Below, one piece after another: positions 30,279 through 46,763 of a stretch of DNA of 55,275 bases. The notes beneath the pieces are model-generated. The model ran no database searches and was not told the DNA's origin. It saw only the letters and a program-made list of their open reading frames with translations. The stretch's first letter is position 1. Each line of letters starts with the position of its first letter. Made by a program: the position numbers and the translations under genes. The DNA is from Deltaproteobacteria bacterium (GTDB lineage Bacteria > Desulfobacterota > Desulfomonilia > UBA1062). The stretch lies in assembly GCA_017992605.1 (NCBI GenBank), contig JAGOOG010000006.1, positions 1-55,275 of the forward strand, in the 5' to 3' direction.

Positions 30279-31526
30279 TCACGCCCCGGGCTGCATGAGG
30301 TACTGTACGGTCCCGTCCGGGACCACGGCCACCCGGGCATCGGACGGGTATTCCTTCTCGAGCATGGCCAGCACCTCGGGCCAGGTCTTCACCACCTCGG
30401 CATCCCCGTTGTCGCAGACCAGGTCGAGGAAGGTCCTGTCCGGCGCCGGGTTGAGCACGATGAGCCGCTTCATGAGCAGAGGGATGAAGCCCTTGCCCCG
30501 GGCCGCAAAGTGCCTGCCGCCATAGTCCGATCCCCAGGCCCTGAACACGTAGTGGGGGACCTGACCCTCGGGACTGTCGGCGATGAGGACCCCGGTCCCC
30601 TGGGCCCCGGTCTTGAGCAGCATGACCAGGAACGACAGGGCGATGGCCGACTCGTTGGCCTTGCCGTAGGCGTTGGAGACCACGATGTCATAGCCCGTCC
30701 TGTAGGGGATGCCGTAGTGGACCTTGCCGTCCTCGGCACCCCTCGCGTGGGTGGCCCTGAACGGCCCTGCATAGAGCGAGGCGATCTCGCCGCGCCGGTT
30801 GACCAGGCAGTCTACCTTGAAGTTCATCCCCGCCATGTCTCCGGCCGCGTCGCACTCTGTCCGCATGATGTTGTTGTCGAAGTTGCCGAGGCCCGTGCGG
30901 CTGAAATCACGGAACTGCTGGTTGTGGAACTGGTTGATGGTCTCGATACCGGCCACGCCGGGAAGGATGAGCTTGGCCCCGCCGCCGAAACCAACGTGCA
31001 CGTGGGCGGTGATGCAGCCGATGCCGATCTTCAGGTCACAGGCCATGAACTCGCGGTTGAACCAGAGCTCCACCCCGGTGGGGGTGCGCCCGACGCGCAC
31101 CGTGTTCTGGAAGGGGTCGTGGTTGTACACGGCATAGTTCTCCACGATCCCGTCACCGAGTTTCTTGCGGGCAGCGATCATGTCGTAGGCGCCGTGGCTG
31201 CCCAAGGCCCAGAGAAACCGTATCTGGTCCTTCCGCATGCCGGCCCTGTGGAGCTGCTCCAGGACCACGGGGGCAACATCCTTCACGGGCGTGGGCCGTG
31301 TCATGTCGTCGAACACGATGACGGCCTGGTTCTTTCCCCTCGCCAGCTCCTCGAGGGTCGGCCCCTCCACGGGGTGCTCGACGCAGTCCCTTATCTGAGC
31401 GGGGCTGAGTCCCGGCTTCTCGAGGCCCGGCGCGGTGAGCTCGTCGACCTGCCAGCGGTCGGGGAAGGAGAGCTCGCGCTCGATGTTCTCGTACCAGAGC
31501 CTGGATGGCACCTTGACCGTCTTCAT
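30279..31526 (-). CDS. LarA-family (nickel-dependent racemase-like) protein
   Basis: The 415-residue protein belongs to the LarA/DUF2088 family, whose type member racemises lactate with a nickel-pincer cofactor. Key features align: DDMTRPTP about residue 73 (arginine binding substrate), ALGSHG about 108-112 (first catalytic histidine), and AHVHVGFGGGAKLILPG about 170-186 (second histidine and the pincer lysine). GGAGAG lies before ATG 31526; the frame is open upstream without similarity. It is the last gene of the TetR-headed cluster. The cofactor genes larB, larC and larE are not in this window. Substrate could be another 2-hydroxy acid, since the family is diverse. Confidence 0.85.
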   Translation of the reverse strand: MKTVKVPSRLWYENIERELSFPDRWQVDELTAPGLEKPGLSPAQIRDCVEHPVEGPTLEELARGKNQAVIVFDDMTRPTPVKDVAPVVLEQLHRAGMRKDQIRFLWALGSHGAYDMIAARKKLGDGIVENYAVYNHDPFQNTVRVGRTPTGVELWFNREFMACDLKIGIGCITAHVHVGFGGGAKLILPGVAGIETINQFHNQQFRDFSRTGLGNFDNNIMRTECDAAGDMAGMNFKVDCLVNRRGEIASLYAGPFRATHARGAEDGKVHYGIPYRTGYDIVVSNAYGKANESAIALSFLVMLLKTGAQGTGVLIADSPEGQVPHYVFRAWGSDYGGRHFAARGKGFIPLLMKRLIVLNPAPDRTFLDLVCDNGDAEVVKTWPEVLAMLEKEYPSDARVAVVPDGTVQYLMQPGA

Positions 31527-31546
31527 GGTTTCTCTCCTTTCCTCTT

Positions 31547-31918
31547 TCATTTCCTTTTCAGGATCCCGGTGGCATACCCGAAGAAGAACAGGAACCAGAT
31601 GCTCAGGGTCGTGTCCCCCTTCATCTCCAGGTCCCAGTTGGCAATGGCCTTGTGCATGCCCACCGGGTCGTTGGAGGTGAGCACCTTGAACGCGGTGTCC
31701 CCGTCCTTCCACACATACGCGAGGTCATAGTCCGTCAGGACCCGGTCCGAAGAGAAGGCCCCGTCCCTGATGATGAACCTCCTTCCCCTCTTCCCGTCCT
31801 TGGTCATCATCACGATGGTGTGGTTCTTGTACGTGATCATGTCCCTGACATGCTTCTTGGTCCTGAGCATGAGCTTGATGAGAAGGGTGATGACCTCCAT
31901 CAGGATGGTGAACTTCAT
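31547..31918 (-). CDS. SCP2-like small protein, unknown role
   Basis: The 123 residues begin with a hydrophobic amphipathic helix (KFTILMEVITLLIKLML) and contain a stretch, DLAYVWKDGDTAFKVLTSND then LEMKGDTTLSIWFLFFFGY, that resembles the sterol-carrier-protein-2 fold, in which a hydrophobic groove binds lipids or acyl-CoA. The similarity is by eye and tentative. ATG 31918 overlaps the MocA stop by four bases (ATGA). Position between molybdenum maturation genes and larA suggests a role in the same pathway, perhaps carrying a CoA ester. Confidence 0.75.
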   Translation of the reverse strand: MKFTILMEVITLLIKLMLRTKKHVRDMITYKNHTIVMMTKDGKRGRRFIIRDGAFSSDRVLTDYDLAYVWKDGDTAFKVLTSNDPVGMHKAIANWDLEMKGDTTLSIWFLFFFGYATGILKRK

Positions 31919-32568
31919 ACGCCCCGCACCTCCATCATGTCTTTCATCCGGCCTTCCTGCGACATGGCAGACCACCGTCTCAGGCATTCCTCGTAGTCTT
32001 CCGGCGTGTCCAGGTCGAAGAGAATGTTCCGGTCGTCCACCGGCACCTCGAGTAGTTCATCAGGGAACTGCCCCAGCGCACCCCTGAGCCCGTTTTCACC
32101 GCTGAATGACCTGACGGCATCGAGATGCATCCCGGGGATGGCCACCGGGTGTCCCCGCCTGCCCCGGAAGGTCGGGATCAGGATCTTCTCCCGGTCCTGC
32201 ACATGGCGCTCCACGAGACAGCTCAGTGTCCAGGGCAGGACGAGGGGTATGTCCACGGGATGGACAAAGACAGCCCCGGTGACGTCATCAAGGTCCCCGA
32301 TGGCCCTGAGCACCGAGGAGAACATGCCCTCCCCGTGTCTCTCGTTCACCAGGACACGTACCTCGAGCCGTTCCAGTACGGCCTCCAGCTCCTCCCTGCA
32401 ATGCCCGACCACCACCCTGATGTCGAGGATGTCCGCCTCCCTGAACAGGGAGACGACCCGCTCGACGATAGTCCTGTCACCGAGCTCCAGGAGAGGCTTG
32501 AACCGCCCCATCCGCCGGGAAGAGCCGGCCGCGAGAATCACCGCCTTCATGCCCGTGGTCTCCGTCAT
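31915..32568 (-). CDS. mocA: MobA/MocA-like molybdenum cofactor nucleotidyltransferase
   Basis: The 217-residue protein has the MobA-type nucleotide-binding start VILAAGSSRRMGRFKPLLEL (GTP/CTP loop), VFVHPVDIPLVLP with the metal aspartate and GRRGHPVAIP. Beside xdhC and molybdenum-hydroxylase genes it most likely attaches CMP to molybdopterin, giving the MCD cofactor used by this enzyme family. The gene is coupled on both sides through four-base ATGA overlaps with xdhC and the SCP2-like gene. Discrimination of CTP from GTP use cannot be made from the sequence by eye. Confidence 0.88.
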   Translation of the reverse strand: MTETTGMKAVILAAGSSRRMGRFKPLLELGDRTIVERVVSLFREADILDIRVVVGHCREELEAVLERLEVRVLVNERHGEGMFSSVLRAIGDLDDVTGAVFVHPVDIPLVLPWTLSCLVERHVQDREKILIPTFRGRRGHPVAIPGMHLDAVRSFSGENGLRGALGQFPDELLEVPVDDRNILFDLDTPEDYEECLRRWSAMSQEGRMKDMMEVRGV

Positions 32569-33608
32569 CTCCTTTTCGCTCGCTCCTTGATGAGCTCGGC
32601 CACGATGCTCACCGCGATCTCCTCAGGGGTACCCGCGTCGATGGCTATGCCGATGGGGCTGTGGACCCTCCGGAGGTCATCTTCCATGAATCCCTCGGTC
32701 ACGAGCGCCCCGTAGATGATGTCGCGCTTCCTCGTGCTGCCGATCATGCCGATGTACCCGGCCTTTGTCCCCAGGGCCTGTTTGAGCACGGTCCTGTCAT
32801 GTTCGTGACCCCGGGTCACGATCACCACGAAGCTGTGACTATCCACGTGGAGCCCGTGGAAACAGTCCGAGAACGAATCCAGCACCCTGGCCTCCATGGG
32901 AGGAGGAAACCTTTCCGCATTGGCGAATTCGGCCCGGTCGTCCAGCACGCAGGGACCGAATCCCACTCGGCAGCCGAGCACAGCCACCTCCCTGGCCACG
33001 TGCCCCGCGCCAAAGATGTAGAGGGGGTCCAGGTCCTCCACGACATCGATGCACACGGTCCCGCCATCAGTTTCGATCAGGGCCGAACCGGCCAGGGACC
33101 CTTTCTGCCCCTCGATCCTCGTCATGAGGTCCCTGTTCGCTACGTCATGCTCGTGGAGGGTGTCCGGGCAGAAAAGGCGCCTGGAGATCGGATACAGCCC
33201 AGCTCCCTCGCGCTTGAATTCCGTCATGAGGACCCGTTTCCATCGGACTTTGCTTCTTGAATCGATCTGGTCGAAGGTGCCGATCGTCTCCTCGTCCGCA
33301 TGGACGTATTCACAGAGCATCTTCATGCTCCCGCCGCAGATCATGTCTGTCCCGGTCACATCGACACCGTTCATGTCCAGGGTCCACACCGCCGAAACTT
33401 TCCTGTTGAAAAGCCCGCCGGCTCGTTCCATCACGTAGGCCTCGGCCAGCCCCCCGCCCACCGTTCCCTCGATGGCGCCTCCCCTCCGTACGATCATGCG
33501 GGCACCCGCATTCCTCGGGGCCGAGCCGTTGCAGCCGACAACCCTGGCCAGGACAAGCCCACCGTCCTCTCTGAGGATTTCCGCAACCTGGGCGAGCACC
33601 TCTCTCAC
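32565..33608 (-). CDS. xdhC: XdhC/CoxI family molybdenum-hydroxylase maturation factor
   Basis: XdhC-type chaperones bind the molybdenum cofactor, help its sulfuration and insert it into the apo-enzyme. The 347 residues contain the N-terminal XdhC domain (GTVGGGLAEAYV about 50) and a C-terminal Rossmann domain (YIFGAGHVAREVAVLGCRVGF about 200, VIVTRGHEHD, GYIGMIGSTRKR). The cysteine in MICGGSMKML matches the conserved segment. Start is GTG at 33608, three bases after the FAD-subunit stop with GGGGGA upstream. Confidence 0.92.
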   Translation of the reverse strand: MREVLAQVAEILREDGGLVLARVVGCNGSAPRNAGARMIVRRGGAIEGTVGGGLAEAYVMERAGGLFNRKVSAVWTLDMNGVDVTGTDMICGGSMKMLCEYVHADEETIGTFDQIDSRSKVRWKRVLMTEFKREGAGLYPISRRLFCPDTLHEHDVANRDLMTRIEGQKGSLAGSALIETDGGTVCIDVVEDLDPLYIFGAGHVAREVAVLGCRVGFGPCVLDDRAEFANAERFPPPMEARVLDSFSDCFHGLHVDSHSFVVIVTRGHEHDRTVLKQALGTKAGYIGMIGSTRKRDIIYGALVTEGFMEDDLRRVHSPIGIAIDAGTPEEIAVSIVAELIKERAKRR

Positions 33609-33611
33609 CGC

Positions 33612-34589
33612 TCATCCCCCGCAGGCCAGGATTGACCTCTTGACCAGGGTCCTGGCCACCTGGACCATGTATGCGTTGTTCTCCAGGGGCCGCGCGTCTT
33701 GCACGGCTGCCTCGGCTGCCTCCCCGGCCACCCCGTCAGCGATGATCCGGCCCTGGAGCATCTGCTCGGCACCGGTGACCCTGCGGGGTACCACGTGCAC
33801 TGCATTGAGACATATCCGGGCAGATGCCACCTGTTCATGGTCAAAGGCAAGCGACGCTGCACAGTTCACGATGGGGAAGTCGATTGCCTTCCTCAGGGCG
33901 AACTTCAGGAAAGCGCTCCTGGTCCCTTCCGGCGGCTCGGGTATGCGGATCTCCGTGACGATTTCGCCAGGCTCGAGGACCGTGGTTCCGTTCAGCCTGA
34001 CGTTGAAGAACTGCTCTGCGTTTATGGTCCGCCTGGACGTGACCACGGATGCACCCAGTGCGATGAGCGCAGGGGCCGTGTCGCTGGGATGGACCGCCAC
34101 GCACCCCTTCTCCACGCTGCCGCCGAAGATGGAATGGAACCGGTTGTCCCCCTTGAGGGCATAGCACCTGCCGCCGCCCTTTCTCAGGCACGAGAACCGG
34201 TTGCCCGGACCCCGGTAGTACCAGCACCTGATGTCCTGGCAGAGGTTGCCGCCGATGGTGCCCATGTTCCGCAGCTGGGGAGAGGCTGTCCTCCCTGCAG
34301 CCTCGGCCAGGGCACGGTACTTCGACAGGACCACCGGGTGGGCCGCCACCGACGACAGTCTCGCGAGCGCCCCGATGCGCAGTACGCCACCTTCCTCCCG
34401 GATGGCGTCGAGTCCGGGGATGGTCTTGATGTTGACGAGCGCCTCGGGATAGGAGGGCAGGATCCGGTCCTTCATCTTGACGAGCAGATCGGTGCCACCC
34501 GCCATGATGCATGCTTTCCCGTCGTAGCCTGCCATGAGCGATGCCGCCTCGTCCACCGAGTGTGCGTTGAAGTGCCTGAAGGGCTTCAC
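33612..34589 (-). CDS. Molybdenum hydroxylase FAD subunit with extra four-cysteine insert
   Basis: The 325-residue medium subunit (CoxM/XdhB/HcrB group) passes electrons from the iron-sulfur clusters to FAD. FAD loops are MAGGTDLLVKMK about residue 31 and MGTIGGNLCQD about 110. After the second loop comes an insert with cysteines spaced C-x11-C-x7-C-x20-C (from RCWYYRG to EKGCVAVHP, about 118-160). This resembles the [4Fe-4S] insert of the 4-hydroxybenzoyl-CoA reductase beta subunit. The start is GTG at 34589, with GGGGAGG upstream and overlapping none of the previous stop; the longer open frame is not family-like. Confidence 0.9.
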   Translation of the reverse strand: MKPFRHFNAHSVDEAASLMAGYDGKACIMAGGTDLLVKMKDRILPSYPEALVNIKTIPGLDAIREEGGVLRIGALARLSSVAAHPVVLSKYRALAEAAGRTASPQLRNMGTIGGNLCQDIRCWYYRGPGNRFSCLRKGGGRCYALKGDNRFHSIFGGSVEKGCVAVHPSDTAPALIALGASVVTSRRTINAEQFFNVRLNGTTVLEPGEIVTEIRIPEPPEGTRSAFLKFALRKAIDFPIVNCAASLAFDHEQVASARICLNAVHVVPRRVTGAEQMLQGRIIADGVAGEAAEAAVQDARPLENNAYMVQVARTLVKRSILACGG

Positions 34590-34590
34590 A

Positions 34591-35193
34591 TCACACCTCC
34601 CCGTTGTCTTTCTGTCCGGACAGTTTGCCTGCCGCTTCCCGGACGGCAATGATGTGCTGCGGGTAGGTGCCGCACCGGCACAGGTTGCCGGACAGGGCGT
34701 CCCTGATCTCGTCCTCGGTGGGGTCCGGGTTCCGGTCGAGCAGTGCCTTGGACGTCACCACGAAGCCCGGGGTGCAGTACCCGCACTGCATGGCGTGGTG
34801 CTCGACGTAGGCCTCGATGAGCGGATGCCCGGCCCGGGCGACGCCCTCCACGGTCTCGATGGTCTTGCCGTCGCACTCGATGGCCAGGACCATGCAAGAC
34901 AGCACGGGAAAACCATCCATGATGACCGTGCACGACCCGCACGCCCCCCGGTCGCAGAACTGCTTGGAACCTGTCATGCCCAGGTGGTCGTGGATGAGGT
35001 GGTACAGGGTCCATTCCGGCTCCACCTGCACGACGTGCACCTGGCCATTGATGACCAGCCTGACCTGCCCTTCCTGGGCAGGCAGGGGCATTCCCCGGTG
35101 ACTGGTCAGGATGTCATGTTTCAGCTCGTCGAAGGTGTCGAACCGTTTGCCGCAGTAGGGGCAGGTGAAACCTGCCTTGGCCTGTTCCGTCAC
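34591..35193 (-). CDS. Molybdenum hydroxylase 2Fe-2S subunit with zinc-finger-like N-terminus
   Basis: The 200-residue small subunit (CoxS group) carries two [2Fe-2S] clusters: a plant-ferredoxin type (FCDRGACGSCTVIMDG, then SCMVLA) and a helical type (MQCGYCTPGFV and NLCRCGTY). Unusually, the ferredoxin domain starts only about residue 40. Before it is FTCPYCGKRFDTFDELKHD and a further TSH, a C2H2 zinc-finger-like pattern (C-x2-C-x11-H-x5-H). Start is GTG at 35193 with GGGAGGG seven bases upstream; the upstream TTG frame lacks a site. The gene lies between the large and FAD subunits. Confidence 0.92.
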   Translation of the reverse strand: MTEQAKAGFTCPYCGKRFDTFDELKHDILTSHRGMPLPAQEGQVRLVINGQVHVVQVEPEWTLYHLIHDHLGMTGSKQFCDRGACGSCTVIMDGFPVLSCMVLAIECDGKTIETVEGVARAGHPLIEAYVEHHAMQCGYCTPGFVVTSKALLDRNPDPTEDEIRDALSGNLCRCGTYPQHIIAVREAAGKLSGQKDNGEV

Positions 35194-35230: not shown

Positions 35231-37690
35231 TCATATCTTCCCAAGGGCTTTCAGGACCTTGTCCGGGGTGATGGGGTGATCGTCTATCCACACGCCGATG
35301 GCGTTGTGCACCGCCGGGGCCAGGATGCCGGTCATGACCGTGCCGATGTCCTCGCCGATTCCCACGGAACCGTAGGGTCCGTAGCCCATGCCGCTCTCCA
35401 CCAGGATGGTGCCGATGGGACAGTCCACGTCCCTGATGGTGGCGATCTTGTAGTCGAGCAGGTTTCCGTTGAGCATGACGCCGGTGACCGGGTCGTAGAT
35501 CATCTCCTCGAACCTGCCACGGCTGAGCCCCATGACGGTCCCGCCATACTGCTGTCCCTCGCAGCTCATGGGGTTCATGGCCTTGCCCACGTCGTTGACG
35601 TTGACCACCCTGATGACGAAGACATCCCCCGTCTCGGTGTCCACCTCCACCTCCACGAAATGTGCCTGGCGGGTGAGGTGGGGCCGGGGGTTCTCCGGGT
35701 TGTAGCTGCCCAGCTGGACATGGTAACTGAAGGCGAAGAACGGCTCGGTGAAGGCCCACCTGAACCCGGCGTTCTCGGTGGACGAGATGGGGCCCGACTG
35801 CCCCGCCTCCATGACGAATTCGGCCAGGCTCTTGCGCACCGACGGGTCGGACTTCCTGAAGATGACGCTGTCCTCGATGTCCAGGTCGTCCGGAGCGCAT
35901 CCCGGGAACGCCGGCCGGTACTCACCCCGCTGGGTCTTTGCCGTGGGGCTGACCGCCGCCTCGAGGATCTGCTGCTTCAGGATCCTCGCCGCATGGCGCA
36001 CGGCCCACCCGTTGACCGAGCAGTTGGTGGACGAGTCGGGTGACATGCGGAAGAACCCCGGATCGATCTGCTGGTTGTAGTGGACGTCTTCCAGGCTCAT
36101 GCCCAGCTCGTCGGCCGCGATGCGGCAGTAGGTGTTCTCCGCGTCCACCCCGTTGTCGCACCCCATGGCCAGGATGGATGCGGTCCCGTCGTTGCGCTCG
36201 ATGCGGATGGCGATCTCGCCCGTGCCGAGCGAGTCGTCCCACTCGTTCGTCCAGGTGAAGGCCGCCCCGTGCATGCGCCCGTTGGGCAGTCTCCTGGTAC
36301 CCGGCAGGTGCCGCTTTTCGTCCCACCCGAAGGCCGCCTTGCCCTTCTCCACGCAATCCCTGAGGCTGTCGACGAGGGGAAAGCCCCGCTGCCTCTTCGC
36401 CTCGTCGAGACCTTCCATGTCGTGCCCCTCGTACCCGTCGTTCTTCAGCGCGACCTCGACGGGGTCAAGCCGGCACTCGGCGGCGACCCGGTTGAATACC
36501 ATGGTCATGCTCAGGGTGGTGGGGAGCTGCTCGCACCGCGTGGGCACGGCCGGCCCCTTGTTGACCCAGACGCTTTCGGTGGTTCCGTGGAGGTGGGGAA
36601 TCCTCGTGTTCTCCTTGAAGTGGTTCAGGATGTTGAACATGGGCCACTGCTGGTTCGCTATGGTGGACACCCCCTCGACGGCCAGGATGGTGCCGTCGCT
36701 GCTGAACCCCACCTTGAAGCGGTACCTCCCGTTGTCCATGGACTCGCCGTAGAAGTCCTCGCGCCGGGTGAATGCATATTTCACGGGCCTGCCGGTCTTC
36801 TTCGCCACGAAGCCTGCACAGTACAGGGGGCCCATGTTCCACTGGACCTGGATCCAGCCGCCGAAGCTCGCCCCCTGGTAGAGGCAGTGGAGCTGGATCT
36901 TGTTCATGGGCACGCCGCCGTACCAGGTGGACAGGTTCTTCTTGACCAGGTGGGGCCGCTGCTGCTTGACCCACACCTCGGGGCAGTCGCCGTTCCACCT
37001 GAACACGCCGCAGGGTCTCTCGGGTCCGATCCAGGTGTGTCCCCTCCGGAAGAACTCGAACTCGATGATCCTCTCCGATGCCTTGAAGCCTTTCTTCACG
37101 TCCCCCTGGACGAGCTCGTTGAACATGCCGTTGTTCCAGTAGTTCCCGGCCGAATAGATCTCCGGGTAGGACAACGGGGCATCGTCTTCCCGGGCCCTGA
37201 TCACGTCGAGGTTGAAGGGTCGCTGCTCCCACTCGACCTCGACGAGGGTCAGCGCCTCCTCGGCGATGGCCTCGGTATCGGCCGCCACTGCCACGCCGAC
37301 CGGTTCCCCCTCGAAGTGGGCGATGCCGGGCAGCGGCGGCGGGTCGCCGAAGAGCCCGGGCAGCTTTCCCATGCTCGCCCTTTCCGGCAGCTCAGGGTTG
37401 TCGTAGCGCAGGACGTACCTGACCCCGGGCAGCTGCTCTGCCCTGGACGTGTCCAGCCTCGCGATCTTCGCGTGGGGGTACGGCGCGTCGAGGAACCGCA
37501 GGTGCAGCATGCCGGGAAGCTGGACGTCCATGGTGTAGTCCGCCTCGCCGCATGCCTTCTTGTGCCCGTCAAGCCTGCGGCCCGAGCGCTCCCCGATGTG
37601 CTTGAACCGCTTCAGGGGGGAGGCGTCCGCACGCAGGTTGTCCTGCAGCTCCTTCATCTTCCGGATCTGTTCATCGGTATGGATGCCCAC
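35231..37690 (-). CDS. Molybdenum hydroxylase large (molybdopterin) subunit, divergent
   Basis: The 819-residue subunit binds the molybdenum cofactor. The a/b hammerhead domain lies about 35-150 (GEADYTMDVQLPGMLHLRFL, HFEGEPVGVAVAADTEAIAEEAL) and the cofactor domains follow. The catalytic glutamate is in GSVGIGEDIG about 780. Two usual signatures are changed: the GQG pterin motif reads CDNGVDAENTY about 510, and the substrate-loop region reads GPAVPTRCEQLP about 387. It lacks the CO dehydrogenase loop (AYRCSFR), so it is not CODH; the substrate is open. Start: GTG 37690 has AGGAGG six bases upstream; ATG 37696 would touch that site. Confidence 0.88.
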   Translation of the reverse strand: MGIHTDEQIRKMKELQDNLRADASPLKRFKHIGERSGRRLDGHKKACGEADYTMDVQLPGMLHLRFLDAPYPHAKIARLDTSRAEQLPGVRYVLRYDNPELPERASMGKLPGLFGDPPPLPGIAHFEGEPVGVAVAADTEAIAEEALTLVEVEWEQRPFNLDVIRAREDDAPLSYPEIYSAGNYWNNGMFNELVQGDVKKGFKASERIIEFEFFRRGHTWIGPERPCGVFRWNGDCPEVWVKQQRPHLVKKNLSTWYGGVPMNKIQLHCLYQGASFGGWIQVQWNMGPLYCAGFVAKKTGRPVKYAFTRREDFYGESMDNGRYRFKVGFSSDGTILAVEGVSTIANQQWPMFNILNHFKENTRIPHLHGTTESVWVNKGPAVPTRCEQLPTTLSMTMVFNRVAAECRLDPVEVALKNDGYEGHDMEGLDEAKRQRGFPLVDSLRDCVEKGKAAFGWDEKRHLPGTRRLPNGRMHGAAFTWTNEWDDSLGTGEIAIRIERNDGTASILAMGCDNGVDAENTYCRIAADELGMSLEDVHYNQQIDPGFFRMSPDSSTNCSVNGWAVRHAARILKQQILEAAVSPTAKTQRGEYRPAFPGCAPDDLDIEDSVIFRKSDPSVRKSLAEFVMEAGQSGPISSTENAGFRWAFTEPFFAFSYHVQLGSYNPENPRPHLTRQAHFVEVEVDTETGDVFVIRVVNVNDVGKAMNPMSCEGQQYGGTVMGLSRGRFEEMIYDPVTGVMLNGNLLDYKIATIRDVDCPIGTILVESGMGYGPYGSVGIGEDIGTVMTGILAPAVHNAIGVWIDDHPITPDKVLKALGKI

Positions 37691-37715
37691 GGTCATCCTC
37701 CTTTGCATGCATGGT

Positions 37716-38945
37716 TCACAAGCCTGCCGCCCTGCCCCTGACGTAGGCCGACTGGCGGATGAGCGCATCGTACTCGTCGCGGAAATACCTCAGCGAGTCC
37801 AGGACCGGCACCGGGGCTGCCTGACCGAGCCCGCACAGGGAGGCCAGCGACATGGCCTGCGCCAGGTCCTGGAGGGTCCTGATGTCCTCGGGTCTGCCCT
37901 GACCATCCATGAGCCTGTGGAATATCTCCACCATGGCCTCCAGCCCGTCACGGCACGGGGTGCATTTCCCGCAGGACTCCTCGTGCAGGAAGAGTATGTC
38001 CTTGTACACGATGTCGATGATGTCTCTTTTGGAACTGAACACGACCACGGCCCCCGAGCCGAGCACGTTCTCGTGGCACAGAAGGGTGTCCATCCTGTCC
38101 GACGGGACGATGCTGCCGGCGGCCCCGCCTACCTGGACCGCCTTGATGTCATCCGCCCCTGCCAGGTCCACGACCAGCTCCCCGAGCGGGCTGCCCATGG
38201 GCAGCTCGTAGACGCCAGGCCTGCTCACGTCCCCGCTCACGCAGAACACCTTGGTCCCCTTGCTCCGCGACGTCCCCATGGCGCTGAACCACGGGACGCC
38301 GTTTTCGATGATGTGCGGGACGTTCATGAGGGTCTCCACGTTGTTGATGACCGTGGGTTTCCCCCAGAGGCCGCTCACCGGCGGGTACGGGGGTTTGTAC
38401 CGGGACTCTCCCCTCCTCCCCTCAATGGATTCCATGAGCGCCGACTCCTCGCCGCAGATGTAGGCACCGGCACCCTCGAAGACCTGCAGGTCCATGTGCT
38501 TCAGGAATCCGTGGCGCCTCACCTGCTCGACGGCCTCCAGGAGCGGTTCATGGAGTCGATGATACTCGACTCTCAGGTAGATGTACGCGCGTCCGGCCCC
38601 TATGGCGAGGCCGGCGATGCACAGACCCTCGATGAGTCCGAAGGGGTCGTTCGTGAGAAGGTACCGGTCCTTGAAGGTCCCGACCTCCCCCTCGTCGGCG
38701 TTGCAGATGAGGTACTTCTCCCTCGAGGCGGTCTTCCGGGCCAGCTCCCACTTCAGGCCGCACCCGAACCCGGCGCCACCCCTCCCGGTGAGCCCCGATA
38801 GCTTGACCTCGTCGATGATCTCCCCGGGCTTCATGGTGTCGCGCGCCTTGAGGAAGGCCCTGAACCCGCCGCGGGCAAGATATGTAGAGATATCCCCGGG
38901 ATCGACGACGCCGCAGTTCTTCAATACGATGCGCTGTTCAGGCAC
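37716..38945 (-). CDS. NuoF-like NADH-binding flavoprotein
   Basis: The 409-residue protein belongs to the NuoF/HoxF/HydB group: FMN and NAD(H) binding with one [4Fe-4S] cluster. Motifs in order are GRGGAGFGCGLKWELA (NADH-binding glycine loop), CNADEGEVGTFKDRYL, ICGEESALMESIEGRRGE (FMN), and the cluster ESCGKCTPCRDGLE with a final C in SLCGLG. It has no N-terminal thioredoxin-like or C-terminal ferredoxin extension. Start is GTG 38945 with GGGAGGA upstream. It follows the NuoG/NuoE fusion gene by 17 bases, so the two form an NAD-reducing module feeding from the molybdenum hydroxylase or from ferredoxin. Confidence 0.92.
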   Translation of the reverse strand: MPEQRIVLKNCGVVDPGDISTYLARGGFRAFLKARDTMKPGEIIDEVKLSGLTGRGGAGFGCGLKWELARKTASREKYLICNADEGEVGTFKDRYLLTNDPFGLIEGLCIAGLAIGAGRAYIYLRVEYHRLHEPLLEAVEQVRRHGFLKHMDLQVFEGAGAYICGEESALMESIEGRRGESRYKPPYPPVSGLWGKPTVINNVETLMNVPHIIENGVPWFSAMGTSRSKGTKVFCVSGDVSRPGVYELPMGSPLGELVVDLAGADDIKAVQVGGAAGSIVPSDRMDTLLCHENVLGSGAVVVFSSKRDIIDIVYKDILFLHEESCGKCTPCRDGLEAMVEIFHRLMDGQGRPEDIRTLQDLAQAMSLASLCGLGQAAPVPVLDSLRYFRDEYDALIRQSAYVRGRAAGL

Positions 38946-38962: not shown

Positions 38963-40084
38963 TCAGCCGGCTTCCTGCCGGTACTCCCTGAGGACGTCCG
39001 CCACGCGATCCGGCGTCAGGTTTCCGTAGAGCTCGTCGTTTATCAGCATGGCCGGGGCCTGGTCGCAGGCGCCTATGCAGCCGACCAGCTCCAGGGAGAA
39101 CATGCCGTCTGCGGTGGCCTCCCCCGGGAGGATGCCGAGCTCTGTCTGGATCGTCCCGATCACTGTGGAAGCGCCCTTGAGGTCGCACGGTACGCATTTG
39201 CAGATCCTTATCCTGTGCTTCGCCCCGCCGTGCAGGGGCAGATACGCATAGAAGGATGCCGTTCCGTACACGTCGCTCAGCGGTATCCCGGTCTTGACGG
39301 CCACCCTCAGCATGGCCTCCCTCGACAGCACGCCGGACCGGGCGAGCTCCTGTCTGAGCACGGGCAGGAGGTCTCCACGGCCGGTCCCGTCCCTTCCGGC
39401 GCCCCCCGGGGAGGGGTGTCCGGCCCGTATCTGCGTGAACCCTGAAGGCCTGCTCAGGGCGCCCGTGGGGCAGTAGTCGATGCACACGCCGCAGTCCCTG
39501 CAGGACTCGGTTGTCAGCGGCTCGTCGTACCCGGTGATGACGGCCGAGGTGAACCCTCGGTAGCCGATGGCCAGCACGTCCCTGCCCGCGATCTCCCTGC
39601 ATGCCGTGATGCACCTGCGGCAGAGGATGCACTTGGAGAGGTCCCTGCGGACATAGGGGTTGTCGTCCTCGGCGGGATAGAACCGAGGCCTGGTCACGTT
39701 GAACCGCGGTGCCCCGACCTCGTGGTCGGAGGCCAGATTGTGCAGGCCGCAGGTGTCGGCATTGGGGTCGGTGACGCAGGTCCCGGTGTGGGCGGTGAGC
39801 ATGAGCTCCACCACGGCCTTGCGCACCGCGATCACTCTCGGGGTGTCCGTCCTGATGACCATGCCCTCGGTCAGGGGCGTGTGACATGCCCCCACCAGGG
39901 CCCGCGAGCCCTGAACCTCCACCACGCAGACCCGGCACACACCGCTGGGCCGCTGGCCCTCAACGTGGCACAGGGTGGGGATCTCGATGCCCGCCTGACG
40001 GGCGGCCTCGAGGATCGTTGCCCCCCGCGGGGCCTTGATCTTCCTGCCGTCGATCACCGCATGCGTCTTGAAGAGGGTGAACAT
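38963..40084 (-). CDS. NuoG N-terminal/NuoE fusion iron-sulfur protein
   Basis: The 373 residues join two subunits normally separate. Residues 1-80 are a [2Fe-2S] ferredoxin domain (PTLCHVEGQRPSGVCRVCVVE, GACHTP); about 90-125 is the His/Cys cluster segment (HTGTCVTDPNADTCGLH); about 145-210 holds two [4Fe-4S] sites (CILCRRCITACREI and CRDCGVCIDYCPTGAL). After a glycine-rich linker, about 235-373 is a full NuoE thioredoxin-like domain with C-x4-C equivalent CKCVPC and GCIGACDQAPAM. This gives five potential clusters. AAGGAGG lies four bases before the ATG. With NuoF it would make a soluble diaphorase module. Confidence 0.9.
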   Translation of the reverse strand: MFTLFKTHAVIDGRKIKAPRGATILEAARQAGIEIPTLCHVEGQRPSGVCRVCVVEVQGSRALVGACHTPLTEGMVIRTDTPRVIAVRKAVVELMLTAHTGTCVTDPNADTCGLHNLASDHEVGAPRFNVTRPRFYPAEDDNPYVRRDLSKCILCRRCITACREIAGRDVLAIGYRGFTSAVITGYDEPLTTESCRDCGVCIDYCPTGALSRPSGFTQIRAGHPSPGGAGRDGTGRGDLLPVLRQELARSGVLSREAMLRVAVKTGIPLSDVYGTASFYAYLPLHGGAKHRIRICKCVPCDLKGASTVIGTIQTELGILPGEATADGMFSLELVGCIGACDQAPAMLINDELYGNLTPDRVADVLREYRQEAG

Positions 40085-40102: not shown

Positions 40103-40774
40103 TCAATCCTGCCCGGTCACGAAGATCACGATGACCTTCACGGGCCCGTGCATGCCCTTGAACTGGACCGCCTGGATGTCGCCGGTGGAGCTCGGTCCCG
40201 TGATGAAGCAGAACTGGCTCGGCGCTTCCAGTCCCTGTGAGAAGACCTGTTCCACCGCGTTCTCGTAGACCGGGTACAGCCTGCCTGCGGGCACGACGGC
40301 GATGTGGACGGGCGGGGCTATGGAGGCAAGCCTCGGCTGCCCGCTGCGGAAGATCAGGCCGAGAGACCCTGTCTCCGCTATGGCGAAATCCGTGGAGGTG
40401 ATGCCTGCATCCGAGGAGAAGGCTGCCTGCCTGAACGCCTCCCGGTCCGGAACGTCATCGGCCGTGAAGACGTCGACACCGGCAGTCCTGCCCCAGCTCG
40501 CGAGGTCCAGGGCCCTGACCGTATCGTCTCCGGATGCGACGGCCTTCCTAATCCCCTCGGCTGCGGCGATCGCTGTCAGGACGCGCAGGGTTTCCTCCCT
40601 CCCTGCGGCCTGGTGGACGACCCCGGTCTGGGCGTTCAGCTCGGAGGTGAAGCGCTCGATGAGCCGTTCACGGTCCAGGGAAAGTTCGGACAGCGGCGGC
40701 ATGGTCGGTCTCGCCGGGGCCGTGCCTCGCGGGGCGGCCCTTAACCGGGCAAGGATCTCTTCCCGTGCAGACAT
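40103..40774 (-). CDS. lutC: LutC-like LUD-domain protein
   Basis: LutC is the small LUD-domain component of the LutABC L-lactate oxidase. The 223-residue protein has the family core: SDAGITSTDFAIAETGSLGL, VHIAVVPAGRLYP, and the C-terminal FITGPSSTGDIQAVQFKGMHGP. ATG 40774 was chosen; a GTG at 40780 would overlap the lutB stop (GTGA) and is equally possible. It is followed by the NuoG/NuoE gene after 18 bases. Confidence 0.9.
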   Translation of the reverse strand: MSAREEILARLRAAPRGTAPARPTMPPLSELSLDRERLIERFTSELNAQTGVVHQAAGREETLRVLTAIAAAEGIRKAVASGDDTVRALDLASWGRTAGVDVFTADDVPDREAFRQAAFSSDAGITSTDFAIAETGSLGLIFRSGQPRLASIAPPVHIAVVPAGRLYPVYENAVEQVFSQGLEAPSQFCFITGPSSTGDIQAVQFKGMHGPVKVIVIFVTGQD

Positions 40775-40776
40775 GC

Positions 40777-42210
40777 TCACCCCTTCCTGCCTTTCGCCTT
40801 CCACCATTCATGGAAGGTCTTCTCCGGCATGCCCGGCAGGTCCCTGCAGGCGAACCAGCCCTTCAGGCCAAAGGGTATGTTCCGGATGTAGCCGTTGTTT
40901 TCCAGCCGTTTCATGACCGGCTTCATGCTTCTTGCAGCAAGATTCCACGCCGCTGCACTGCTCATGCCCAGCGAAACGAGACCCGCCCCGATCCTCTCGA
41001 TGAAGGCGCTCATCCTTTTGTCGTCCCGCACCCGGGACGCCACCTGCCGCTCACGATAGGCCAGCATGAGCGAGGGATGGTCCACGCCGGCCGGGCAGAT
41101 CTGCCTGCACGCACCGCACAGGGTGCAGGCGCGGTAGAGATCCGCGGTCTTGTCCAGGCCAAGGAGCAGGGGGTTCATGACCTGCCCCATGGGTCCTGAA
41201 TAGGTGAATCCGTAGGGGTACCCGCCGATCTTGGCATACACGGGGCAGGTGTTCAGGCAGCCTCCGCAGCGGATGCACCTGAGCACCTGCCTGGTGAGTG
41301 GGTCCCGGTAGATCTCGGAGCGGCCGTTGTCCACCACGACGATGAAGAGCTCCTCGGGGCCGTCGATCTCGGCGGTCTTCTTGGGTCCGGTGTCCATGGA
41401 CACGTAGCTGGAGATCTTCTGCCCCGTGCAGTTCCTGCACAGGATGCGGATCATGTGGACCGCGTCGGCCATGGTCGGGATCACCTTCTCCGGGCTCATG
41501 ACAGCCACCAGGGTTCTCGGTGACGACTTCGTCATGCGGATGTTGCCCTCGTTCTCCACGTTGATCACCGTGCCCGTGGCGGCAACCGCCATGTTGACGC
41601 CCACGATGCCCATGTCGAGGTGTCTGAACTTCTCGCGCAGGTACACCCGGACCGCCTTGCCGAGCTCGATGGGGTTCGTCGTCGTCTCCTTGATGATGCC
41701 CTTTTCCAGGAATGTCTTCGAGATCTCCTCCGGGGGCACGTTGATGGCCGGACCCACGATATGGAAGGGCGGCAGGGACAGCAGCTGGGTGATGACCTCG
41801 CCGAGGTCGGTCTCGAAGGCGTCCACTCCATTCCTGATGAGATGGTCGTTGAGACCGATCTCCTCGGTGATCATGGACTTGCCCTTGGTGACGTAGGTGA
41901 CGCCGCGCTGCCTGGCGATGTCCAGGATGATCTCGTTCGCCTCGGCTGCGTCCCGGACCCACAGGACCCGTGCCCCGCTGGCCGCGGCATTCCTCTCGAA
42001 CTCTTCGAGCAGCTCGGGCAGCCTCTCGACCACCTCGGCCCTGATGGCGCGGGCCTGCTCCACTGCTGAATCCGGGTCAGGGAACGAGGACATGCCGATC
42101 TGGCGCAGTATGGTGAACCCCGGGGGCAGCAGCGAAAGGAAGATCTGGCTCAGCTCGTTCCTGAGTTCCCTGCTCGCCGTCTCCTTGAATCTCTCGGTAC
42201 GTGCCTCCAT
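40777..42210 (-). CDS. lutB: LutB-like iron-sulfur oxidoreductase subunit
   Basis: The 477-residue protein has an N-terminal LUD domain (about 65-290, with KGKSMITEEIGLN and MAVAATGTVINVENEGN) and a C-terminal pair of [4Fe-4S] motifs, CIRCGGCLNTCPVY and CTLCGACRQICPAGVD. This is the layout of LutB, which with LutA and LutC oxidises L-lactate to pyruvate. A C-terminal tail of about 90 residues (KGWFACRDLPGMPEKTFHEWW) is as in other long LutB proteins. The ATG is one base after the lutA stop region, with GGGGG upstream. Electron acceptor is not known. Confidence 0.93.
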   Translation of the reverse strand: MEARTERFKETASRELRNELSQIFLSLLPPGFTILRQIGMSSFPDPDSAVEQARAIRAEVVERLPELLEEFERNAAASGARVLWVRDAAEANEIILDIARQRGVTYVTKGKSMITEEIGLNDHLIRNGVDAFETDLGEVITQLLSLPPFHIVGPAINVPPEEISKTFLEKGIIKETTTNPIELGKAVRVYLREKFRHLDMGIVGVNMAVAATGTVINVENEGNIRMTKSSPRTLVAVMSPEKVIPTMADAVHMIRILCRNCTGQKISSYVSMDTGPKKTAEIDGPEELFIVVVDNGRSEIYRDPLTRQVLRCIRCGGCLNTCPVYAKIGGYPYGFTYSGPMGQVMNPLLLGLDKTADLYRACTLCGACRQICPAGVDHPSLMLAYRERQVASRVRDDKRMSAFIERIGAGLVSLGMSSAAAWNLAARSMKPVMKRLENNGYIRNIPFGLKGWFACRDLPGMPEKTFHEWWKAKGRKG

Positions 42211-42211
42211 G

Positions 42212-42940
42212 TCACACCCCCTTCACGTTGTCTGTGAGGAAGCTCGCGAGGTGCATGGCCCGGGCGCCAGGGTGGTTCCTGTGGAGGTAGCCGTTAATGT
42301 TGAGCAGGCAGCCGGGTTCGCACAGGAGGAGCACGTCGGCGCCGGAGCTGATGAAGTTTGCGGCCTTGTCCTTGACCAGGGCCTGGGATATCTCGGGAAA
42401 TCCGATGGAGAACTCTCCCCCGAAGCCGCAGCAGGCGGTCGCATTGTCGAGCTCCACGTAGCGGGCCCCTCGTACACTGGAAATAAGCTTCTTGGGCTGT
42501 TCGGAGACCCCGAGCGCGCGCAGGATGTGGCACGACTCGTGGTAGGTCACGGTCCCCTCGTAGGCCGCACCCACATCGGTGATGCCCAGGACATCCACGA
42601 TGTACTGGCTCAGCTCGTAGATCCTCCCTGCCAGTTCGATTGCCCTCCCGTGCCATGACGGTTCATCGGCAAGGAGTTCGGGGTACCGGTGCTTCACCAT
42701 GCTCACGCAGGATCCGGACGGGCTCACGATGGTCTCGTCATCACCGAAGACCTCGATGAAGTGCCTCGCCACCCGCCTGGCCTCGTCCCGGTACCCCGCA
42801 TTGAACAGGGGCTGGCCGCAGCAGGTCTGCCCGTCGTGATAGATCGGCCGCCTGCCCAGTCGTTCCAGAAGCCGGCAGGTCGCCACACCGATCTCCGGCA
42901 TGAGCAGGTCCACCGTACACGGGATGAACAGGGACACCAT
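42212..42940 (-). CDS. lutA: LutA-like CCG-domain Fe-S oxidoreductase
   Basis: The 242-residue protein carries two cysteine-rich CCG domains (HdrB/GlpC/LutA type): FIPCTVDLLMPEIG...TCCGQPLFNAG in the first half and ESCHILRALG...TACCGFGGEFSIGFP in the second, ending with CEPGCLLNINGYLHR. Such domains hold noncubane [4Fe-4S] clusters that move electrons. ATG 42940 has GGAGGAGG eight bases before it; a TTG at 42958 would lie within that site. It is followed by lutB and lutC, completing a LutABC set. Confidence 0.92.
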   Translation of the reverse strand: MVSLFIPCTVDLLMPEIGVATCRLLERLGRRPIYHDGQTCCGQPLFNAGYRDEARRVARHFIEVFGDDETIVSPSGSCVSMVKHRYPELLADEPSWHGRAIELAGRIYELSQYIVDVLGITDVGAAYEGTVTYHESCHILRALGVSEQPKKLISSVRGARYVELDNATACCGFGGEFSIGFPEISQALVKDKAANFISSGADVLLLCEPGCLLNINGYLHRNHPGARAMHLASFLTDNVKGV

Positions 42941-42944
42941 GGCC

Positions 42945-44087
42945 CTATCCTCCTCCAATCAGGGCCCTGAAAACCGGGTCGGCCCTGTCCAGGTAGATGA
43001 GGTCGTCATCGCTGTGCGTCCTGAGCTTGAGGTTCCGTATGGCCGTGCGTTTCTTGTGCATGGCCGCGGTCTTCAGGTTCTCGAGGTTGCCCTCGGGCAC
43101 CTCCCTGAACTGAAGCAGCCGCTTCTTCCTGGCGAGCTCCATGAGCTCGAGTCCCAGCGCGGTGCGGGCGATGACCTGGTTCCACTCCCTGGCCTCCTCC
43201 CAGGGCTCGTTCAGGAGCGCGGAGCCCACGGAGATATCGCTGAACTCCGAGGTCAGGTCGAAGCAGTAGTGGCAGGCCCCCCTGATGCACTTCTTCGCCT
43301 CGTCGATGGGGATCTTCACCGTGGAGTCCCTGGTGAAGACCTCCATGGTCCCGTGCTCCACCGGAGGGATGTCCATGCCCGTGATCGTGGACGGATCGAC
43401 GATCTTCTTCAGGAGCGCGAGGAACGGATCCCATGCGAGGGCCCAGCTGCAGAAGAGACCGACGACGAGCTTGAGGCTGTCGATATTGTTCACGTTGTCG
43501 GGAATCGGCTTCATGCGCATCTTTGCGTATGCCAGGGCCTGGCACGGGGTGGCGACGGCGCCGACCTTGGTGGATCCCTCCCTGGCGAGCCTGTTGAACT
43601 CGGCCACGCCGGGCGACACCACGAACGAGCTCCTGCCGTGCCGTACGACCCTCTTCGCCTGGGTCTCCGAGATGCCCTCGGTGAGGATCGACTCGTTCAT
43701 CCGTGCCATCACCGCGGTATCGATGAGGCCCTCCCTCAGCGCGAGCGCCATGATCGTGGAGACCGTGCCGCCGTGCTGGGAGCGCGTCCTGGTCTGCTCG
43801 CTCGCAGCCCGTGCGATGAAATACTCCTTGACCGCGCCGATCTCGGGGGTGAGGTCCTCCCTGTCGAAAAGGCGGGCCCGCAGTCTCTCGAGATCCACCG
43901 GGGTACGGGGGCAGAAGGCATAACACCTTCCCTCGTCTATGTCACAGTCGAAGAGCGCGACGATCCTGTCCTCGTGGCCGCGCTGATAGGGGCACAGGTT
44001 CACGCACGCCCCGCAGCCGGTGCAGAGCTTGGCGTCCCTCACCTTCTCGTTGAGCTCCTTCTGCCCTTTATGAACTTTTTCTTCCAT
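42945..44087 (-). CDS. FrhB/FpoF-family iron-sulfur flavoprotein
   Basis: The 380-residue protein starts with a ferredoxin-type motif CTGCGACVNLCPY, then the FrhB domains: HGGTVSTIMALALREGLIDTAV, VATPCQALAYAKMR, CSWALAW and the conserved CIRGACHYCFDLTSEFSDISVG. The family oxidises or reduces coenzyme F420 in archaea, but in bacteria without F420 genes its members use ferredoxin or NAD(P)H through FAD. It is placed between iorB and lutA, so it may couple the lactate-type dehydrogenase to the ferredoxin made by IorAB. No F420 synthesis gene is visible here. Confidence 0.9.
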   Translation of the reverse strand: MEEKVHKGQKELNEKVRDAKLCTGCGACVNLCPYQRGHEDRIVALFDCDIDEGRCYAFCPRTPVDLERLRARLFDREDLTPEIGAVKEYFIARAASEQTRTRSQHGGTVSTIMALALREGLIDTAVMARMNESILTEGISETQAKRVVRHGRSSFVVSPGVAEFNRLAREGSTKVGAVATPCQALAYAKMRMKPIPDNVNNIDSLKLVVGLFCSWALAWDPFLALLKKIVDPSTITGMDIPPVEHGTMEVFTRDSTVKIPIDEAKKCIRGACHYCFDLTSEFSDISVGSALLNEPWEEAREWNQVIARTALGLELMELARKKRLLQFREVPEGNLENLKTAAMHKKRTAIRNLKLRTHSDDDLIYLDRADPVFRALIGGG

Positions 44088-44127
44088 CCTGTCCTCGCTT
44101 TCACGAATCCATGCTACAGGCCTGCCT

Positions 44128-44751
44128 TCAACACCCCCTGACCAGGGCCTCTCCTATCTCGTAGGCCTTCAGGTTGACGGCTACCTTGTCTGCCGGCATG
44201 TCCCGGCCGATAACCTCCCTGAAATCGTCGATGGAAACAGGAAGCAGGTCCATGCCTCCCACCGCTCCGATCATGATGACGTTCTGGAATATCGGGTTGC
44301 CGAGCTTGAGGGCCTCGTCGGTGGCGCTGATCATGAAGCTCCGTGCCGTGAGGCTGTCTATGGTGGCCCTTATCTCGTCCATCGTGGGATATCTGTCATC
44401 ACCGGCGATGACCCTGACCGGGTAGACCGGCCTGTCGTTGCTCAGGCTCTGGCTGAATGGGTTCCCGTACGCCGAGAGCACCTTGATGGCCTCGGAAGGC
44501 TCGAGCGCCACCACCAGGTCGACCTTCCCCTTGGGGATCTGGGGGCTCCACGCGCCCATGGACGATATCCTCACATGGCTCATGACCGAACCGCCCCGCT
44601 GGGAGGCGCCGAAGGTCTCGCCGATGGTCACGGCATATCCCTTGGCCACCAGCATGCCTGCGAGCATGCGCGACGCGGTGACGTTGCCCTGGCCTCCCAC
44701 GCCCGTGATGATGACGTTGTAAGGGTCTTTCTGCAGTGTGCTCTTCTCCAT
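44128..44751 (-). CDS. iorB: Indolepyruvate:ferredoxin oxidoreductase beta subunit
   Basis: The 207-residue gamma-type domain of 2-oxoacid:ferredoxin oxidoreductases binds CoA and completes the active site. Motifs are IITGVGGQGNVTASRMLAG, GETFGASQRGGSVMSHVR and NVIMIGAVGG. With IorA it converts aryl 2-oxo acids (indolepyruvate, phenylpyruvate) to aryl-acetyl-CoA, CO2 and reduced ferredoxin. The ATG lies three bases after the iorA stop, so the two are coupled. Confidence 0.93.
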   Translation of the reverse strand: MEKSTLQKDPYNVIITGVGGQGNVTASRMLAGMLVAKGYAVTIGETFGASQRGGSVMSHVRISSMGAWSPQIPKGKVDLVVALEPSEAIKVLSAYGNPFSQSLSNDRPVYPVRVIAGDDRYPTMDEIRATIDSLTARSFMISATDEALKLGNPIFQNVIMIGAVGGMDLLPVSIDDFREVIGRDMPADKVAVNLKAYEIGEALVRGC

Positions 44752-44754
44752 GGC

Positions 44755-46692
44755 CTATGCCACCTCCACCTTCTGAATGGCCCCGGTCGGACAGACATTG
44801 GCGCAGACGCCGCAGCCCGCACAGATGACCTCGTCGATCCGCGCGACCTTATGGTCCGCATCCCAGTAGATGCCTGGACACCGCAGGATGCGCGTGCACA
44901 TCCTGTTGCAGCCGCATTTCTCCCCGAGGCAGAGGTCCTCGCGGACCGACATCTCGTACTTCTTCTTGCCGCGCTTCTCCGGGCTCAGGGCGCATATCTG
45001 CTTGAGTATCACGACCCGGGCTCCCTGCCTCTTCAGCATGGCTGTGAGCGTGTTCTCCGTGGTCTGCACGTCGAAGGGATCGCACTGCGCGACCTCGGCG
45101 CCGACGGCCCTGCAGATTTCCGCGATGTCCACCGGGGGCGATGCCTCGCCCATGGCGTTGACCGTGAGACCTGGATGGGGCTGGAACCCGGTCATGGCCG
45201 TGCCGCTGTTGTCGAGCACCACCAGGGTGACGTCGGACTGGTTGTGCACCGCGTCCACCAGGGCAGGCATCACTGCGTGGAAGAAGGTCGAGTCGCCGCA
45301 CACTGCTACCACCGGCTGGTCCATGCCGAATCTCGTGAGCTGGCCGAATCCCGTGGCGAGCCCGAGGCCGCTGCCCATGGAGAACATGGTCTTCACGGTG
45401 CTGAAACCGGCGGGAAGCACCCCGATGCCGTAGCACCCCACGTCGCCGCACACGAACCCCTCCCGTCCATCGAGGATGAGGGCGTTGTGCAGGGACAGAA
45501 ACGAGGCGCGGTGCGGGCATCCCGGGCAGAAGGTGAGCTCTCGGCCCGGCGACTTGAACATGGACGAGAACGCCGTGGCGGCATAGTCCTGTGGCACCGG
45601 CTCATACTGGACACCGAGGATCCCTTTGACCGCGGTGACGATGAGGTCGGGGTTGAGCTCGCCCGAGGTGGGGAGGTGGCCCGATTTCTTGCCGAAGAAG
45701 GTCTTGAAGCCCACCTCGACAGCGGCCTCTGCCGCCAGGATCTTTATGTTCTCCTCCATGAAGTCCTGGGGCTCTTCCACGATGAGGACCTTCTCCGTTG
45801 TCGCGAGGTGTCTCCTGACGAGACCTTCGGGCAGGGGCCAAGTGGTGCCCAGCTTCAGCAGCCCCACCCTGTCTTCGAGGTTCAGGGTGTGGATCGCCTC
45901 CTTGCTGTAGAGGTAGCACGCACTGCCGGTGACGACGAGGAGCTCGGGTCTGTCGGGTCCTGCATAGCTGTTGAACGGTGACTGCTCGAAGAGCGAGATC
46001 GCCGTCTTGAGCCTGCCCTGCTGGACCGTGCGGGCATAGGCCACGACGCCGGGGCCGGTGACCATGGGTCCGGTGAGGAAATTCAGCAGGGGGCCCTTGT
46101 GGCTGAAGTAGGCACGGGGCTTCAGGTCGGGGAGTCTCCCCAGCCTTACGTTCCCGCTGGCATGTGACATACGGGTCACGCTCCTGAAGATGACAAAGGT
46201 CTTGAGCTCCTCCGAGAGCTCGAGGGCCCACTTCATCATGTCCTTGGCCTCCTGGAAATCCCCGGGTTCCAGCAGGGGAACCTCGAACATCTTGGCGAAG
46301 TAGCGGGCATCGGCCTCGTTCTGGCTGGACAGGGCTCCAGGGTCCTCGCAGACCGTCACCACCATGCCACCACGAACCCCGGTCCCGGTCAGGTGGAGGA
46401 GGAAGTCCGACGCCACGTGGATGCCGTTCTGCTTCATGGTGCAGATGGACCGCAGGCCCGCAAACGATGCTGCCGCCGCGATCTCGGTGGCGATCTTTTC
46501 GTTGGTCGCCCACTGAACGTAGAGGTCTTTCTCGCCGGCCACGCGGGAGAGGTTCTCGATGATCTCAGAGGACGGTGTGCCCGGGTACCCGGCTGCGACG
46601 CTCACTCCGGCCTCCAGTGCACCCCGGGCGATGGCCTCGTTGCCCATGAAGAGGCACTGTGTTCCTTCGTTCGGATCAAGCAGGTTCGACAT
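44755..46692 (-). CDS. iorA: Indolepyruvate:ferredoxin oxidoreductase alpha subunit
   Basis: The 645-residue subunit has the pyrimidine-binding domain first (FMGNEAIARGALEAGVSVAAGYPGTPSSEI), a middle domain, then the TPP-diphosphate domain (CPGCPHRASF; VCGDSTFFHAVMPALVDAV; LDNSGTAMTGFQPHPG) and a C-terminal pair of [4Fe-4S] motifs (CNRMCTRILRCPG and ICAGCGVCANVCPTGAIQ). This is IorA, not the pyruvate enzyme. ATG 46692 has GGAGG five bases upstream; a GTG two codons earlier is the alternative. It is the first structural gene after tetR, 71 bases downstream of that gene's stop. Confidence 0.95.
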   Translation of the reverse strand: MSNLLDPNEGTQCLFMGNEAIARGALEAGVSVAAGYPGTPSSEIIENLSRVAGEKDLYVQWATNEKIATEIAAAASFAGLRSICTMKQNGIHVASDFLLHLTGTGVRGGMVVTVCEDPGALSSQNEADARYFAKMFEVPLLEPGDFQEAKDMMKWALELSEELKTFVIFRSVTRMSHASGNVRLGRLPDLKPRAYFSHKGPLLNFLTGPMVTGPGVVAYARTVQQGRLKTAISLFEQSPFNSYAGPDRPELLVVTGSACYLYSKEAIHTLNLEDRVGLLKLGTTWPLPEGLVRRHLATTEKVLIVEEPQDFMEENIKILAAEAAVEVGFKTFFGKKSGHLPTSGELNPDLIVTAVKGILGVQYEPVPQDYAATAFSSMFKSPGRELTFCPGCPHRASFLSLHNALILDGREGFVCGDVGCYGIGVLPAGFSTVKTMFSMGSGLGLATGFGQLTRFGMDQPVVAVCGDSTFFHAVMPALVDAVHNQSDVTLVVLDNSGTAMTGFQPHPGLTVNAMGEASPPVDIAEICRAVGAEVAQCDPFDVQTTENTLTAMLKRQGARVVILKQICALSPEKRGKKKYEMSVREDLCLGEKCGCNRMCTRILRCPGIYWDADHKVARIDEVICAGCGVCANVCPTGAIQKVEVA

Positions 46693-46763
46693 CTCCACCT
46701 CCAGGTGCTTGGTTCTATCTCCGTCACAGCCTCATGCGGAAGAAGGCAGTGACTCGATCCGTT

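Follow-up and report, generated by a model that had tools for sequence, protein, structure and literature searches.

A molybdenum hydroxylase with a PaoB/HcrB-type cluster insert encoded beside a Hyd/Nuo-type NAD(H) module, and relatives with a permuted GltD/NfnL-like domain in the same loop: a candidate electron exit port

Both HcrB, the FAD subunit of 4-hydroxybenzoyl-CoA reductase from Thauera aromatica (1rm6_B), and PaoB, the equivalent subunit of the Tat-exported PaoABC enzyme of Escherichia coli (5g5g_B), bind a [4Fe-4S] cluster at an insert for which CO-dehydrogenase-type medium subunits have no counterpart. The role of this extra cluster throughout PaoB/HcrB-type enzymes is usually deduced from HcrB alone, for which it represents a point of entry for low-potential electrons. 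The locus considered here lies within a 55,275-nucleotide stretch of deltaproteobacterial DNA (the window), and its gene neighbourhood, together with the domain architecture of related proteins, suggests an alternative in which the cluster would serve to wire an NAD(P)H module to the Mo/FAD core.

A single open frame on the minus strand (33612..34589; 325 aa), initiated by a GTG codon at 34589 with GGGGAGG ahead of it, encodes the FAD subunit of a xanthine-oxidase-family molybdenum hydroxylase, predicted from Pfam, PDB matches and an AlphaFold model to carry a PaoB/HcrB-type [4Fe-4S] insert. The assignment of the subunit, already made in the initial annotation, was confirmed by matches above cut-off to FAD_binding_5 and CO_deh_flav_C (143.8 and 54.4 bits respectively) and by the two FAD loops that it contains, AGGTD at residue 30 and TIGGN at residue 111. 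Past the second loop, the four cysteines reported in that annotation were found exactly as described, in the arrangement C122-x11-C134-x7-C142-x20-C163, occupying a cluster loop at 34101..34226 on the minus strand (codons at 34226, 34190, 34166 and 34103 respectively). Alignment of 52 homologues of 34-82% identity demonstrated that C122, C134 and C142 were each retained in all 52 and C163 in 51, whereas the five other cysteines of the subunit were kept in 3-31 of the 52; C117 of the NLC motif, which immediately precedes the four, is one of these five (31/52). It is highly probable that the four bind a cluster, and very likely that this would be one [4Fe-4S] of the PaoB/HcrB type. A serine replaces C163 in the sole exception, L124, and the same GGGPS motif recurs in L136 and L141, which would accommodate a reading in which the four cysteines hold zinc, or else a cluster that is vestigial and redox-silent; that reading is scarcely credible given the near-complete cysteine conservation over so wide a range of identity, and the [4Fe-4S] clusters borne by HcrB and PaoB as solved relatives with the same insert. 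Around the serine the three sequences read GGGPSYIVHPS or GGGPSFIVHPS, from which three-cysteine clusters appear possible in these proteins.

The PDB sequence matches of the FAD subunit were 5y6q_B, the aldehyde oxidase subunit from Methylobacillus sp. KY4400, 1rm6_B and 5g5g_B, and multiple alignment with MAFFT matched the four cysteines one-to-one with the four of each of these proteins, which puts them where the HcrB ligands lie, within an insert of ~40 residues after the second FAD loop. The apparent absence of an equivalent for one HcrB ligand in a pairwise phmmer alignment, in which the loop was partly misplaced, was ruled out by the multiple alignment. Structure comparison (VIA) undertaken with the AlphaFold model (pLDDT 93.7, pTM 0.93) ranked the same three chains highest, with 5y6q_B (Z 41.1, 317 residues) ahead of 1rm6_B (38.1, 306) and 5g5g_B (37.5, 306), while insert-less three-subunit enzymes (CO-dehydrogenase-type, nicotinate and quinoline) aligned over just 267-277 residues. 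The insert was judged in the model by these aligned lengths, the additional 30-50 aligned residues being, as modelled, the insert itself, and the alignments and structure comparison together bore out the claim that it is missing from the medium subunits of CO dehydrogenase and ordinary xanthine dehydrogenase.

The proposed likeness to HcrB held in respect of position, the insert site and all four cysteines being equivalent, but not in respect of type. Spacing in HcrB is x15-x7-x8 as opposed to x11-x7-x20 in the FAD subunit, and the latter shares with PaoB and 5y6q_B, at 33-34% identity and over the same fold of 306-317 residues, both the C-x7/8-C pair and a lengthy loop from Cys3 to Cys4 that includes N-R-x-H-[AS]-[IV], here GDNRFHSIFGG. 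Furthermore, the best structural match was to an aldehyde oxidase rather than to HcrB (Z 41.1 versus 38.1). Scores against the HcrA, HcrB and HcrC equivalogs (TIGR03194, TIGR03195 and TIGR03193) of 239, 164 and 153 bits all fell below the respective cut-offs of 995, 405 and 258, and the window enzyme was for that reason not placed in HcrABC; the PaoA and PaoC equivalogs were similarly missed (124/322 and 166/1180 bits). A reductive enzyme of the HcrABC kind, in which reduced ferredoxin would feed electrons into the cluster and so drive FAD and Mo in reverse, is consequently improbable. The homology of the cluster cysteines to those of HcrB, the fact that the large subunit finds its best PDB match in HcrA and the probable anaerobic habit of the organism are all compatible with such an enzyme, but it is opposed by the missed cut-offs, by the PaoB-type spacing, by the adjoining NADH module and by the occurrence of the same insert in the oxidative PaoB and 5y6q enzymes.

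The insert is itself of a known and widespread type: a genome scan recorded at least 80 insert-bearing loci from many phyla, and the four-cysteine form was present in many Tat-exported enzymes of Gammaproteobacteria, Gemmatimonadota and Acidobacteriota. Being so widely distributed, exported enzymes included, it is on its own uninformative with regard to either direction or ferredoxin. The suggestion in the initial annotation that the cluster would permit exchange with ferredoxin or reductive operation was thus left unsupported, given the exported carriers, the neighbouring NADH genes and the missed HcrABC cut-offs.

On the minus strand the genes run in the order HoxU-NuoE, NuoF, large Mo subunit, [2Fe-2S] subunit, FAD subunit, XdhC and MobA-like. 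The first (38963..40084, minus) encodes an electron-transfer subunit in which a part resembling HoxU and the HydA N terminus is fused to NuoE, as indicated by Fer2_4, Fer4_Nqo3 and 2Fe-2S_thioredx matches and by its cysteine motifs, with PDB matches to HydA1 (8a6t_A) and HydC (8a6t_C). The second (37716..38945, minus; Complex1_51K, SLBB, NADH_4Fe-4S) encodes a NuoF/HydB-like NAD(H)-FMN subunit of ~409 aa, matched in the PDB by 9bov_B, 7t2r_B and 7q4v_B with E values of ~1e-115 to 1e-113. Taken together, the NuoF sites for FMN/NADH and a [4Fe-4S], the NuoE [2Fe-2S] motif and the HoxU motifs for a 2Fe-2S and two [4Fe-4S] clusters correspond to an NAD(H)-reducing module of the HoxFU/Fds/Hyd1 type. 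The window module shares these parts and motifs with HydABC, HoxFU and Fds-type modules, but is encoded beside a xanthine-oxidase-family enzyme rather than a hydrogenase or formate dehydrogenase, has a reduced NuoF, and has Asp in place of the middle Cys at the N5-type site of HoxU, where H-x3-C-x2-D-x5-C-x-L-H is the pattern throughout the clade.

The nearest solved structures to NuoF, HoxU and NuoE are subunits of HydABC, NfnABC and StnABC, which lends itself to a reading in which the molybdenum hydroxylase bifurcates or confurcates, using NAD(H) and ferredoxin jointly. Such a role is very unlikely: NuoF spans only residues 123-528 of the 599 in HydB, so that in the PDB alignment it lacks both the N-terminal [2Fe-2S] and the C-terminal 2[4Fe-4S] domains, the ~120 and ~70 residues in which the extra Fe-S centres reside, and a paucity of Fe-S centres in the beta subunit is described as the mark of non-bifurcating enzymes (PMC7311640).

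Downstream of NuoF, the molybdopterin-binding large subunit (35231..37768, minus; Ald_Xan_dh_C, MoCoBD_1, MoCoBD_2) is encoded by an open frame of 845 aa whose start overlaps NuoF, making Met25 (37696) the likelier initiation site; its best PDB match was 1rm6_A, and its C-terminal motif contains the Glu of GIGE. The [2Fe-2S] subunit (34591..35193, minus; Fer2_2) begins with a GTG at 35193 preceded by GGGAGG. Beyond the FAD subunit, the XdhC-type maturation factor (32565..33608, minus; NF045664) passed the model named 'XdhC family aldehyde oxidoreductase maturation factor' with 374.3 bits against a cut-off of 350, and was followed by a MobA-like molybdopterin nucleotidyltransferase (31915..32568, minus; NTP_transf_3) that scored below cut-off with NCBIfam models. 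The genome as a whole encodes a single molybdenum hydroxylase large subunit, and NuoF genes number two.

Upstream and on the same strand (40103-46698, minus), LutC, LutB, a CCG protein (LutA-like), FrhB-like, POR-gamma and IorA-like genes are found, with a TetR regulator following, perhaps constituting an island for the oxidation of 2-hydroxy/2-oxo acids. The LutABC, Ior and FrhB products could be alternative partners of the NADH module, and gene adjacency, being circumstantial, does not prove the existence of a complex. It is nevertheless unlikely that the Nuo-type genes serve another enzyme such as these, leaving the hydroxylase with a different acceptor. Among the matches listed, nine further loci of the clade had HoxU-NuoE and/or NuoF next to the hydroxylase genes, whereas LutC held such a position in the same-genus relative L021 alone, with distant Lut matches at most in the other scored loci; independently of gene order, insertion of a GltD-like domain (see below) ties the enzyme family to NAD(P)H. 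The order HoxU, NuoE, NuoF, large, [2Fe-2S], FAD, XdhC, MobA was reproduced on a Dehalococcoidia contig (L107), the clade loci devoid of Nuo genes (L057, L065 and L108) reached a contig edge, and a Pfam scan of the genes near L102 returned no alternative electron carrier. The neighbouring genes favour NAD(H) over ferredoxin as the partner.

In 21 loci among the matches listed, 19 of them complete, the FAD subunit was found to contain a GltD/NfnL-like domain between cluster cysteines 3 and 4, which the window subunit itself does not possess. These proteins (L026:11230-13584, L075-L084, L093-L101 and L105) are distributed over several phyla, carriers including Acetobacterium tundrae DSM 9173, Chloroflexi, Elusimicrobia, an actinobacterium and Desulfobacterota, and measure ~780 aa, of which the inserted NAD(P)H domain accounts for ~450. 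The domain matched Fer4_20 and Pyr_redox_2 in Pfam, and NfnL/GltD (5jca_L, 4ylf_B) in both sequence and, by Foldseek searches with its model, fold; the model of the fused L093 protein (pLDDT 84.2, pTM 0.77) was used for fold identity alone. The domain opens with C-x3-CP and, in all 19 complete copies, closes with RC-x2-C-[GSA]-C, whose final cysteine is the fourth ligand in the cluster loop. The RC-x2-C pair is normally situated at the GltD N terminus, so that its C-terminal location within the cluster loop distinguishes the inserted domain from NfnL/GltD as a circular permutation, one that would be expected to set two Fe-S systems side by side. No account of a GltD domain within the FAD subunit of a molybdenum hydroxylase emerged from a search of open-text literature, which is weak evidence of absence; as far as could be searched, the NAD(P)H-wired variants are undescribed.

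In a quick tree of the large subunits, with long branches flagged, the GltD insert appeared in several separated lineages, and the starred branches forced at least eight label changes. L093 has a large subunit of the window clade (1024 bits), within which the tree places it with 100% SH-aLRT, and yet a GltD insert, with Nuo genes not found in its 12.4 kb. Close kin of the GltD-inserted proteins in which the domain is missing were also recorded (L022 and L023), each with a longer Cys3-Cys4 loop (x31) that is possibly the scar of a loss.

The window [2Fe-2S] subunit starts VTEQAKAGFTCPYCGK and has no Tat signal, unlike Tat-exported PaoABC, nor was a Tat motif present on this subunit in the other Nuo-associated loci. 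More generally, the motif was absent from all 28 rows with an NAD(P)H module, two of which derive from the same contig, while 46 of the 74 rows without a module possessed it. The association, with a Fisher p of 2.8e-8 by count with phylogeny ignored, did not attain significance over phylogeny-independent pairs, of which three were usable within a tree set of 22 versus 73 rows. The pattern fits NAD(P)H wiring confined to cytoplasmic forms.

The window enzyme would be described as a cytoplasmic, three-subunit molybdenum hydroxylase acting on an aldehyde, N-heterocycle or similar C-H substrate. The electron path that we infer would run from substrate to Mo, through two [2Fe-2S] clusters to FAD, and thence via the loop [4Fe-4S] to HoxU-NuoE/NuoF, which would reduce NAD+ or, were the direction reversed, draw electrons from NADH. 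On this view the extra cluster would be an electron exit port, with different NAD(P)H modules attached to it in different lineages: a separate complex of Hyd/Nuo type in the window and a GltD/NfnL-like domain within the loop elsewhere. This explanation as a whole, an exit from the loop cluster to interchangeable modules, is probably correct, although the Asp at the N5-type site of HoxU counts against it. The broader proposition has slightly better than even prospects: the insert would be a general plug-in socket, and cytoplasmic members of this hydroxylase family would have been linked to NAD(P)H several times, either by a docked Hyd-type module or by an in-loop permuted NfnL/GltD, the latter, by virtue of its placement beside ligand 4, wiring the extra cluster to the NAD(P)H flavin. 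If the cluster is such a wire, molybdenum hydroxylases linked to NAD(P)H would form a group of their own in anaerobes, one that offers biocatalysis an oxygen-independent, NAD(P)H-producing means of C-H hydroxylation.

Two further features of the gene run were recorded. At its end lies a gene of the LarA-like nickel-pincer racemase family (30279-31712, minus; Lar_N), which scored below every LarA equivalog cut-off. At the N terminus of the [2Fe-2S] subunit, a C2H2-like zinc-finger stretch, FTCPYCGKRFDTFDELKHDILTSH, was present throughout the Nuo-associated clade and also in L099 and L114, and was absent from L093, which has GltD instead of Nuo; this finger might dock the NADH module.
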